From the NCBI GenBank assembly GCA_026745465.1, contig JACYXH010000018.1:290001-354000 (forward strand): a DNA stretch of 64,000 nucleotides, in the 5' to 3' direction. The notes beneath the pieces were generated by a model that saw only the letters and a list, made by a program, of their open reading frames with translations, was not told the origin of the DNA and did not search any database. Shown piece by piece: positions 57,201-60,115 of this stretch; position 1 is the stretch's first letter; every line of letters starts with the position of its first letter. Source of the DNA: Lota lota. Lineage: Eukaryota; Chordata; Actinopteri; Gadiformes; Lotidae. A program made the position numbers and the translations under genes.

Positions 57201-60115
57201 CACGCTACCGTTCAATTGGCCCTAAAAGTCAATGCCATCCAAAAAGTGAGGCCATTCACCACGACAGGGATTTAATAGAAACGTCGGACACGACTCAGTC
57301 AGAGGCAATGGCCGGTAATGCAATCAGCCCCTGCTGGAAAGATCAGAGCCCTTCCTCTGCCCGTTGGCCCTTGAGGGGTCTGCTAGAACGCCGCCAGCTT
57401 GCATTCTGTGTCACAGTGCCTCCCTCATCGCTCTAACTACCGATTTGTGGTCTTCCTAATGGGATCGTTGGTTTCTCCGCACTGGGCCATATATGTTTAT
57501 AACTCCCTCATATAACGGGGGGTCAACCTTTAGAGTCTTTTTTTTATTTTTTACTGCCACTAGAGAAAACCAGCAAGCTTGTTCTCACTTCACTTTGCAA
57601 AAGAGGCCAATCCTCGGAAGTATGATGATTATTCTTCGATACTAATGATATCCCCACATTGCATTTCGTCTGGTCAACAAAGACAATTTCACAAACAGTG
57701 TCGAGAACCCCATCAACAACAGAGGGAAATCCAAGGCATTTGCTTTTGCCTGTTTCCAGTCCACACCAAAAAAAAAAAAAAACACCAACAAAGCTATCTG
57801 GGGAAAATGCAGCCTCCCTTTAGAAAGTAGGTAAACATTTACACTCGCTTTCCTGGTCAGACAAAAAGCAACCTTTGACTTAGACGGCAGACCTTCTCAT
57901 GGGAGAGAGAAAACGAGAGAGACAGAGAACGAGAGAGAGAGAGAGAGAGAGAGAGAGAGAGAGAGAGAGAGAGAGAGAGAGAGAGAGAGAGATTGGTGAG
58001 GGAGAGAGATTGGTGAGGGAGAGATTGGTGAGGGAGAGAGATGGGTTGGGTGAGGTAGAGAGATGAAGTGGGTGCAGGAGAAAGAGACAGGGGTGGGTGG
58101 GGGAACGAGAAGGTTTGATGTGGGACAGGGTGAAAGAGAGGTGGATGAGGAAAAGAGAGAGAGAGAGGGATGGAAGCAGGGACATGAGGAGAACTGTTAA
58201 AGATCTGAGAGAAGCAGGAGAACAAAAACAGGGAGGGGGGAGAATGATCACGTCGGGTGGGAAATCTTGATGGCCCTCTTAGTGATGTTAACCAGATAAA
58301 ACCCTAATTATACTATTCCATTCCCTGCTAAAAGAGGGCCATTAGGGCTGAAAGGAGATAGACTGTGGGTGAAGGAGACTAGTGAGAGATGTGGGAGAGC
58401 AAGAGAGGGGAAGAGAGAAATTAATAGAAAGAGGGTGAGGGTGTGAGGGAGAGAGACAGAGACAGAGACAGAGACAGAGACAGAGACAGAGACAGAGACA
58501 GAGACAGAGAGAGAGAGAGAGAGCGAGAGCATGCAAGGACAGCACCAAACAGCCCCAGCCCAGCACGAAGCCCAATCTTCCTCCACAGCAATTTCCTGCC
58601 ACAGCAGCCTCTCTTGTTTTTGTCTTGGCCAGACCCGCCATGAAAATAACGCTGTCATTAAGCAGCCATTTGCTGGTAACTCCCACCCACACCTGCACAC
58701 TGCACTGCACAAATAACCATGATGCCTTGCTGGGCTGGAAACAAAAGAGCCATGATTAATAACATAGTTATATATAGCAACATTTAAGTATATATAGAGC
58801 GAGCTATATGAATGCACTCACGTGCACTCTGTTGTAGGAGGACCACATGTTTTATTGTTGAAGTCGATCGTTGCTTTATGGCCAGTTACCAATGTATCCA
58901 ATCTGCTGGGGCTTAATGTGGAACCGTAATGTGAATTATGTTGTACTGTTATGTCGTGGTTTGGATAAGCATTTCGTTTGGGAATCGCATTTATGTTCTC
59001 CTTTTCTTTTAGTGGTGTTCCACCCTGGTGCTTAGCAATATCATATGGGTTGAGACGACTATAAATACATTGAAGAGGAATTGCCGAAAAAGAAACTCCA
59101 TTAGAAACTAGAACAAAAGGGAGATTGGTATAGCCACCAGCTCTGTTTTTTTTCCATTTACATAGTCGTGGCTCATCTCTGAGTCATTTAAAGTTGCTGA
59201 TTACGGTATTCCTCAGAACCTGAACCAATCGGAATCTGGAGCACATTGACAGAGCGATTAAAAATGACCAGGCAGCTGTTTTTACTGCTGACATTCACTA
59301 TAACCTATTGTTCTGTGAAGAATAGAAGACTGTAACACCAGCAAGGCTATCAGTAAGGCCATCTCCTACATGGCCAGTGTGTAGAAGAGTAGAACATACG
59401 AAAAGAGAACGAAAAGCTACATCATAAAAAGGCTGGTCTTGATATAGATTTCATATGCATTGCTGACTTCAAATACATAACAGGTCTCCTGTTTTTTTTT
59501 TCACATTTGAGGAGAATTGCATTTCACTCCATCATCTATTCTGTAGCCTGGTGTGACCTGTACTCACAGCAGACTCTCGTCTATTCTCCGCCTGGTGTGA
59601 CCTGTACTCACAGCAGACTCTCGTCTATTCTCCGCCTGGTGTGACCTGTACTCACAGCAGACTCTCGTCTATTCTCCGCCTGGTGTGACCTGTACTCACA
59701 GCAGACTCTCGTCTATTCTCCGCCTGGTGTGACCTGTACTCACAGCAGACTCTCGTCTATTCTCCGCCTGGTGTGACCTGTACTCACAGCAGACTCTCGT
59801 CTATTCTCCGCCTGGTGTGACCTGTACTCACAGCAGACTCTCGTCTATTCTGCGCCTGGTGTGACCTGTACTCACAGCAGACTCTCGTCTATTCTCCGCC
59901 TGGTGTGACCTGTACTCACAGCAGACTCTCGTCTATTCTCCGCCTGGTGTGACCTGTACTCACAGCAGACTCTCGTCTATTCTCCGCCTGGTGTGACCTG
60001 TACTCACAGCAGACTCTCGTCTATTCTCCGCCTGGTGTGACCTGTACTCACAGTAGGTCTTCCTGGTCAACTCCTCCACCACCTCCGGCTTCAGCTTGCT
60101 GTTGGACTTCCCCAT
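48185..60115 (-). CDS. ncs1: neuronal calcium sensor 1 (frequenin), complete
   Basis: NCS1 is a 190-residue N-myristoylated EF-hand Ca2+ sensor of neurons that modulates exocytosis, PI4-kinase beta, D2 receptor desensitisation and Ca2+ channels. Seven coding exons on the minus strand join to exactly 190 codons: 60052..60115, 56305..56329, 52474..52612, 50177..50255, 49608..49696, 49449..49526 and 48185..48283 (stop 48185..48187). The start [11 protein letters not shown] carries the myristoylation signal (Gly2, Ser6). EF-hand 1 holds the Cys38-Pro39 pair that disables calcium binding. EF-hands 2, 3 and 4 read [26 protein letters not shown] and [13 protein letters not shown] with all ligands present. 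The C-terminus is SLYDGLV. The protein is nearly identical to NCS1 of other vertebrates. hmcn2 starts 3.2 kb downstream on the same strand. Confidence 0.97.
48525..48650. mobile_element. dispersed fish repeat copy
   Basis: CAATTAGCAGATGCTTTATC, CAAAGCAAGACTTACAGTCA and a G-run, then TTAGGGCATCTTGCTTGCCA, in the order typical of the teleost AGCAGACGCTTTTATCCAAAGC repeat. It lies in ncs1 intron 6. Confidence 0.5.
49449..49526 (-). CDS. ncs1: ncs1 exon 6: linker and start of EF-hand 4
   Basis: Residues 133-158 ([18 protein letters not shown] to FAMMDK), phase 0 on both sides. The donor is gtttgt. It ends inside the fourth calcium loop. Confidence 0.96.
49608..49696 (-). CDS. ncs1: ncs1 exon 5: EF-hand 3
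   Basis: Residues 104-132 ([18 protein letters not shown] to IYQMV), completing Trp103 at its 5' end. The full third calcium loop is inside this exon. The donor is gtgagt. Confidence 0.96.
50177..50255 (-). CDS. ncs1: ncs1 exon 4: rest of EF-hand 2
   Basis: Residues 77-102 ([15 protein letters not shown] to LDEKLR) plus the first base of Trp103. The donor is T/GTAAGT. Confidence 0.96.
50256..52473. other. ncs1 intron 3
   Basis: A 2.2-kb intron with a long (CT)n run near its 3' end and a perfect palindrome at 51212..51236 (12-bp stem, 1-nt centre). Otherwise there is nothing I can identify. Confidence 0.7.
50403..50574. repeat. (CT)n, about 170 bp, uninterrupted
   Basis: A pure CT run in ncs1 intron 3, about 150 bp upstream (transcriptionally) of exon 4. 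Confidence 0.98.
52474..52612 (-). CDS. ncs1: ncs1 exon 3: EF-hand 1 and start of EF-hand 2
   Basis: Residues 31-76 ([11 protein letters not shown] to VFDENK). The Asp37-Cys38-Pro39 sequence marks the inactive first EF-hand. The exon ends in the middle of the second calcium loop (donor gttggt). Confidence 0.96.
53354..53493. repeat. (CT)n, about 140 bp, uninterrupted
   Basis: A pure CT run in ncs1 intron 2. Confidence 0.98.
54723..55240. repeat. (GGGA)n/(GGA)n purine-only tract
   Basis: More than 450 bp of almost pure purine (GAGGGAGG, AGGAGGATGGAGG) in ncs1 intron 2. Confidence 0.95.
55362..55388. repeat. 27-base C run
   Basis: A pure C run in ncs1 intron 2. It is one of the few long runs with C rather than G on the plus strand. 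Confidence 0.95.
56305..56329 (-). CDS. ncs1: ncs1 microexon 2 (25 nt)
   Basis: Only 25 nt, between a tcttacag acceptor and a gtgag donor, with 3.7 kb introns on both sides. With the neighbouring bases it codes FTEKEVQQW, a string invariant in NCS1. It is too short for ordinary ORF calling but required for frame, with phases 1 and 2. Confidence 0.95.
57923..58522. repeat. (GA)n and (GACA)n cluster in ncs1 intron 1
   Basis: (GA)n at about 57930-57991, imperfect GAGAGATTGGTGAGG units at 57990-58060 and (GACA)n at 58456-58508, separated by purine-rich DNA. Confidence 0.9.
59531..60051. repeat. 44-bp minisatellite, 12 units, each with a copy of the ncs1 exon 1 donor
   Basis: The unit begins TGTACTCACAGCAGACTCTC and recurs exactly every 44 bp from 59559 to 60043, nearly invariant. 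On the minus strand each unit holds TGTGAGTACAGGTCACACC, the same as the genuine exon 1 donor and first intron bases. The array abuts the exon. Confidence 0.95.
60052..60115 (-). CDS. ncs1: ncs1 coding exon 1
   Basis: It codes residues 1-21 plus one base of Phe22, from the ATG at 60113..60115. The donor is T/GTGAGTACAGG, and the same donor sequence is repeated twelve times downstream by a 44-bp array. Confidence 0.96.

Follow-up and report, generated by a model that had tools for sequence, protein, structure and literature searches.

A 44-bp minisatellite repeats the exon 1 splice donor of ncs1 twelve times in Lota lota and may have copied it passively

In this study, we have explored a 64-kb stretch of the Lota lota genome (positions 290,001 to 354,000 of contig JACYXH010000018.1, hereafter the window), in which the boundary between exon 1 and intron 1 of ncs1, the gene of neuronal calcium sensor 1, is occupied by a minisatellite that carries 12 near-identical splice donors on the minus strand. 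The first of them (donor 1) is the sole one that keeps the NCS1 frame. We consider it fairly probable that this is a tolerated minisatellite whose donor copies are passive, with donor 1 dominant. The arrangement amounts to a natural experiment, with 12 nearly identical donors 44 nt apart after the first exon of a conserved gene. It can be used to test how the spliceosome ranks equal donors, be it by proximity to the cap, by proximity to the intron or by accessibility, and a wrong choice would be readable as a transcript predicted to undergo nonsense-mediated decay (NMD).

Anatomy of the array and predicted products of its donors

On the minus strand, TGTGAGTACAGG is found in 12 copies, all 11 intervals between them being exactly 44 bp, and the first G of the donor GT runs from 60051 (donor 1) down to 59567 (donor 12). 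Tandem Repeats Finder (TRF) places the repeat at 59546..60053 with a period of 44, 11.5 copies and 99% matches, which is the highest score among the 93 TRF rows of the window; by unit size and copy number, these head-to-tail units form a minisatellite, a putative variable number tandem repeat (VNTR). The 12 matches of the 12-mer in the window all lie inside the array and on the minus strand only, as compared with a mean of 0.01 matches in 100 dinucleotide shuffles of the window. The GTGAGT of donor 1 occupies 60046..60051, and donors 2 to 12 lie within 59562..60007, also on the minus strand, with their GT at 60007, 59963, 59919, 59875, 59831, 59787, 59743, 59699, 59655, 59611 and 59567. The exon-side edge given by TRF is 2 nt inside ncs1 exon 1, so that the array sits at the exon/intron boundary. 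When the array was used as a query against the assembly, the ncs1 locus was the sole match among the best candidates listed. The first-pass annotation had described a near-invariant 44-bp array starting at the exon 1/intron 1 junction, in which a spliceosome would meet 12 near-identical donor-like sites, and both points are confirmed by TRF and by the motif count on the coding strand; the span that it gave, 59531-60060, is right in location, with edges slightly outside those of TRF.

The copies are very similar to one another. A single substitution, in unit 5, is found among the 11 full 44-bp units. Unit 12 (59526..59567, minus strand) has the same first 22 nt as the other units and then diverges (AGAATAGATGATGGAGT versus AGAATAGACGAGAGT); the tail nevertheless remains related to that of the unit, the alignment score being reached by 7 of 2000 shuffles, and from its sequence unit 12 is possibly the intron start that preceded the expansion. 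A partial origin of the unit from the end of the exon was also considered and was rejected as unproven (the score of unit end against exon end was reached by 839 of 2000 shuffles). Near-identical copies of this kind allow reads to collapse or expand, and the copy number could in principle be an assembly artefact; however, the distinguishable unit 5 and the diverged unit 12 stand in fixed places and arrays are common elsewhere in this assembly, and we regard an artefact as highly improbable.

The authentic donor of ncs1 exon 1 is donor 1, and joining it to six downstream exons gives a complete 190-aa frame. In the PDB this protein matches neuronal calcium sensor 1 best (1g8i, E 6e-124), and it also matches EF-hand families. 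The seven coding exons, all on the minus strand, were located by matches to a human NCS1 query and by splicing, with GT-AG boundaries set by eye. The coding part of exon 1 (60052..60115, with the ATG at 60115) holds 21 residues and the first base of a phenylalanine (F) codon, and exon 2 (56305..56329, 25 nt, acceptor TTACAG), beyond an intron 1 of 3.7 kb, completes this codon; exons 3 to 7 lie at 52474..52612, 50177..50255, 49608..49696, 49449..49526 and 48185..48283, the last with the stop codon.

In virtual splicing, joining donor 1 to exon 2 rebuilds the F codon and gives the whole 190-aa protein, while donor 2 leads to 57 aa, donor 3 to 60 aa and donors 4 to 12 to 51 aa. The premature stops obtained from donors 2 to 12 (11/11) fall 347 to 805 nt upstream of the last exon junction. 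As NMD usually acts when a stop lies more than 50-55 nt before the last junction, all 11 of these transcripts are predicted NMD targets. The claim that use of a downstream donor would destroy the calcium sensor is thus upheld. The accompanying estimate, that the frame would shift in two of three cases, was right in that most donors do shift it (8 of 11), but too mild: multiples of three units also lose the protein to an in-frame TGA, which is carried with donors 4, 7 and 10, and none of the 11 preserves it.

Strength and predicted accessibility of the donors

Donors were scored with a position weight matrix (PWM) built on a human frequency table and paired with the 5' end sequence of U1. Every unit (12/12) carries GTGAGTAC, a donor comparable to the authentic one: over positions -3 to +8 the copies differ from donor 1 only at -3, the PWM score being 6.3 for donor 1 and 5.43 for donors 2 to 12, and modelled U1 pairing is -6.9 kcal/mol for all 12. 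Among the other ncs1 donors, those of exons 2, 4 and 5 score 8.4-9.2 and those of exons 3 and 6 score 5.7-5.9. According to these models, the array sites could plausibly act as donors but are not strong ones.

Twelve equal U1-pairing motifs within about 0.5 kb directly after a first exon could also serve as a platform on which U1, without splicing, aids transcription, suppresses premature polyadenylation in intron 1 or is held as a decoy. A pseudo-donor that traps U1 has been reported to alter splicing in ER-alpha exon 1, with HMGA1a (PMC6002489). Nevertheless, the array pairing is the weakest in ncs1, the five other donors pairing with U1 at -7.0 to -10.8 kcal/mol and each at least slightly better; the interior sites are predicted to be masked (see below); sites whose scores equal or exceed those of the array copies are found at about 3.2 per kb in the window, on either strand; and there is no sign of selection on the motif, the rest of the unit being equally invariant. 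We therefore hold a U1 platform to be improbable.

Accessibility was taken as the modelled cost of freeing donor positions -3 to +6. The computed cost for donor 1 is 1.5-3.0 kcal/mol across all eight folding windows tried, and for donors 2 to 11 it is 4.2-9 kcal/mol, these copies being predicted to be hidden by pairing between units. Donor 12 costs 2.7-9.3 kcal/mol, varying with the amount of downstream intron that is included. When the whole array was folded with 100-nt spans, the relative weights were 0.53 for donor 1 and 0.46 for donor 12, and with 50-nt spans that of donor 1 was 0.99. Among 36 GTGAGT sites elsewhere in the window, folded with flanks of 40 nt, 2 exceed donor 1 in openness and 3 are masked more strongly than a typical interior copy. 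The contrast between edge and interior is reached by 8 of 200 shuffled units; as interior sites are more masked than donor 1 in 169 of the 200, exposure of the edge appears general to such arrays and only its size is notable.

Other possible signs of unusual folding were rejected. Neither the array RNA (z -0.65, with 22 of 100 shuffles at least as stable) nor the single unit (z -1.18, 25 of 200) is unusually stable; interior masking is not unusual by itself, an equal or greater degree of it being found in 82 of 300 shuffled units and, within an array, in 40 of 200, and the open state of donor 1 by itself is matched by 34 of 200 shuffles.

The first-pass annotation had proposed that copy number could tune expression. 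In one form of this proposal, use of the downstream donors would rise with copy number, transcripts would be lost to NMD, and the VNTR would set the dosage of ncs1. The position of the premature stops, far from the last junction for all 11 extra donors, is compatible with this, as are the equal modelled U1 pairing of the 12 sites, their PWM scores and the opening of donor 12 in some folding windows. There is also a precedent for a copy-number threshold: in hTERT, at least nine copies of a 38-bp repeat in intron 6 are needed for an exon-skipping isoform (PMC3948165). The hTERT array is comparable to that of ncs1 in its unit size and in being an intronic minisatellite; it is described as pairing at the RNA level, which in ncs1 is only predicted, and as having an effect on splicing. 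It differs in lying more than 1 kb from the junctions and pairing with the pre-mRNA, whereas the ncs1 array contains the donor itself. However, folding does not bear out the proposal. The modelled cost of opening donor 1 is nearly constant, at 1.8 kcal/mol with one unit and 2.3 kcal/mol with three or more, up to 12, and the interior copies are masked. We judge such a dosage control unlikely.

These same computations could be taken further, to a self-masking array in which pairing between neighbouring units hides every interior donor, so that splicing would switch, at any copy number, between two states only, donor 1 with the protein or the last donor with NMD. We give this model, which rests on predicted folding, only a small chance; if it were true, minisatellites that copy donors might persist in this genome because they pass a filter set by such self-masking.

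Our preferred account, of passive copies and a dominant donor 1, would run as follows. A minisatellite would have arisen where ncs1 intron 1 begins and have been expanded or homogenised, probably recently, to 12 units. The donor would have been copied passively, because the 44-bp unit includes the first nucleotides of the intron. That the array stops 2 nt inside the exon would probably reflect selection against growth into coding sequence. The gene most likely survives through donor 1 carrying nearly all productive splicing, since this donor stands after the real exon and is open in the predictions and since the interior copies would be tied up in pairing between units. Leakage to later donors, most plausibly to the last one, would give short transcripts that are subject to NMD, with a small loss of output, and the array would be nearly neutral.

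Donor-copying arrays elsewhere and the placement of arrays

The ncs1 array has two counterparts among the sequences examined in this genome, in which the end of an exon is repeated in tandem together with its donor. The first lies in the window, at 6951..7157 on the minus strand (the same strand sense as ncs1), in neighbouring exons that encode many immunoglobulin (Ig) domains and a VWA domain and are hemicentin-like. According to TRF and our reading of the Ig exon, its 26-bp unit, repeated 8 times with GT at 7142, 7116 and on to 6960, joins the last 16 nt of an Ig exon to the first 10 nt of its intron. CTCG|GTAAAACCAC is retained in all 8 copies; splicing from donor 2 or 3 would shift the frame, and from any of donors 4 to 8 it would bring in a stop. 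The donor is weaker than that of the ncs1 array, with a score of 3.64. The second counterpart, L015:3235-3433, from one of the 20 sampled 10-kb stretches described below, repeats an exon end, together with its GTAAGT donor, three times in tandem at 78 bp, in a Gly-X-Y-rich frame that is open throughout. It differs from ncs1 in that 78 is a multiple of 3, and its sequence suggests that in-frame alternative donors could add 26 or 52 residues. This open frame gave no Pfam family and weak PDB matches, and the label collagen-like is a reading by eye.

A further array, L009:1621-2084 (30 bp x 15), adjoins a hippocalcin-like gene, its end being about 12 nt short of what appears to be the acceptor of that gene's first coding exon. 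Read antisense to the gene, 13 consecutive units contain GTGAGT.

Our sample of arrays comprised 20 stretches of 10 kb (200 kb, including about 36 kb of N), from three contigs only, and the 64-kb window. With a period of 15-120 and at least 4 copies, there were 15 arrays in the sampled 200 kb and 10 in the window, a set that leaves out the L015 array (too few copies) and the L009 array (outside the sample). A unit donor scoring at least 5.43 on either strand is found in 9 of the 25, and GTRAGT in 1 of the 25, the ncs1 array. A scan for recurring donor motifs (L006-L031 and the window) gave 62 rows, in which overlapping TRF rows are counted apart and many are GT-rich; the coding context was examined for L015 and L009. 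One further stretch of the scan, L019:8299-8366, holds GTGAGT two or three times.

The placement of arrays was compared with a list of 55 donors, of which 6 are from ncs1 and 49 from 53 Ig-domain pieces (4 had no GT). The Ig donors are the best-scoring GT near the domain end, several being guesses and one having a negative score. If the 10 arrays of the window were placed at random, 3.1 overlaps with donors would be expected, and 2 are seen (P of 2 or more, 0.83), so that an enrichment of arrays at donors was not found by overlap. A TRF row lies within 20 nt of 6 of the 49 Ig donors, and only that at 7142 has the donor repeated nearby. On the acceptor side, 9 of the 53 hemicentin-like positions are touched by a TRF row: a homopolymer in 4 cases, a duplication of about two copies in 3 and a triplet run in 1, the ninth position being 3670. 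Of the 7 positions of the ncs1 acceptor scan, 1 touches short repeats (60115 in that scan being the ATG, not an acceptor). As donor-bearing arrays recur and overlap donors at a random level, no special role needs to be invoked; the array may have a function, which is possible but unneeded. If donor-copying arrays are as common as this small sample suggests, they show repeat growth meeting the constraint of splicing at exon edges.

Several observations weigh against passive copying with a dominant donor 1. With single 60-nt flanks, donor 12 is more open than donor 1 (relative weights of 0.61 and 0.39), and of two occupied donors the intron-proximal one is often favoured. In the same model, the genuine donors that follow ncs1 exons 2, 3 and 5 cost 4-12 kcal/mol to open and are about as masked as the interior copies, which means that masking alone does not forbid use. 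In the 8-copy hemicentin-like array, the edge effect in opening costs is weaker and less consistent. Lastly, an exon-side edge 0-20 nt inside the exon at a donor is seen twice as compared with 0.18 expected (P 0.013, for a measure chosen post hoc), and donors could therefore attract arrays. Selection that purges arrays entering the coding sequence would account for this anchoring without any attraction by donors.

Precedents and neighbourhood of the array

A minisatellite of human IFI6 reportedly has a unit of 12 bp and is located at an exon boundary. Two downstream repeat units of this minisatellite have been reported to be used as donors (PMC4526556), and, by analogy, it is the closest precedent of the ncs1 array, in that minisatellite units supply donors in a transcript, ncs1 donors 2 to 12 being candidates only. 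There are clear differences, as the ncs1 unit is 44 bp and all 11 downstream ncs1 donors would destroy the protein. In fish, the MSTN-2 and GH genes of the gilthead sea bream likewise have polymorphic repeats in intron 1, and MSTN-2 has one or two repeats of about 150 bp at the 5' end of this intron, with no clear association with growth rate (PMC3045353). They differ from the ncs1 case in the one or two copies of MSTN-2, and the excerpt of that report describes no donor array. A worm minisatellite has been linked with multiple splicing decisions (PMC4039745). A donor array at ncs1 is named in no title or abstract opening of the open-licence literature found, in a search that did not use the gene name and with many journals lying outside that literature.

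The ncs1 locus appears to be single in the assembly (575 Mb, 867 contigs). Exon 1 gave one 100% match and six at 55-65%, and exon 3 gave one 100% match and seven others at 40-60%, so that no second ncs1 was found in the assembly, a distant or missing copy being still possible. The hemicentin-like neighbour is presumably hmcn2, which we take to be adjacent to NCS1.

A second minisatellite, of 30 bp x 13, lies upstream of exon 1 (60592..61010, minus strand, by TRF), and its unit has no strong donor. Exon 1 is thus flanked by two minisatellites, at 59546-60053 and 60592-61010. This disposition, together with the 24 of 25 arrays that have no GTRAGT donor, is in keeping with a feature of the DNA near the promoter, either the product of a recombination or replication hotspot or an enhancer, to which splicing would be irrelevant. 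However, the observed/expected CpG ratio around exon 1 is only about 0.6, with no clear CpG island, and such a feature is compatible with passive donor copying, not exclusive of it; we consider it quite unlikely as the explanation.

Other repeats of the window were also recorded. A complex array at 3676-4066 (TRF rows of 11 to 159 bp) abuts position 3670, which appears to be the acceptor of an Ig exon of the hemicentin-like gene. An array of 34 bp x 18.7 with 90% matches (41634-42265) separates the VWA exon of the hemicentin-like gene from those of its Ig exons that were found. Finally, four long perfect CT runs of 133-190 bp (100% matches in TRF), at 23386-23575, 23852-23984, 50405-50574 and 53353-53493, sit between hemicentin-like exons and in ncs1 introns 2 and 3.

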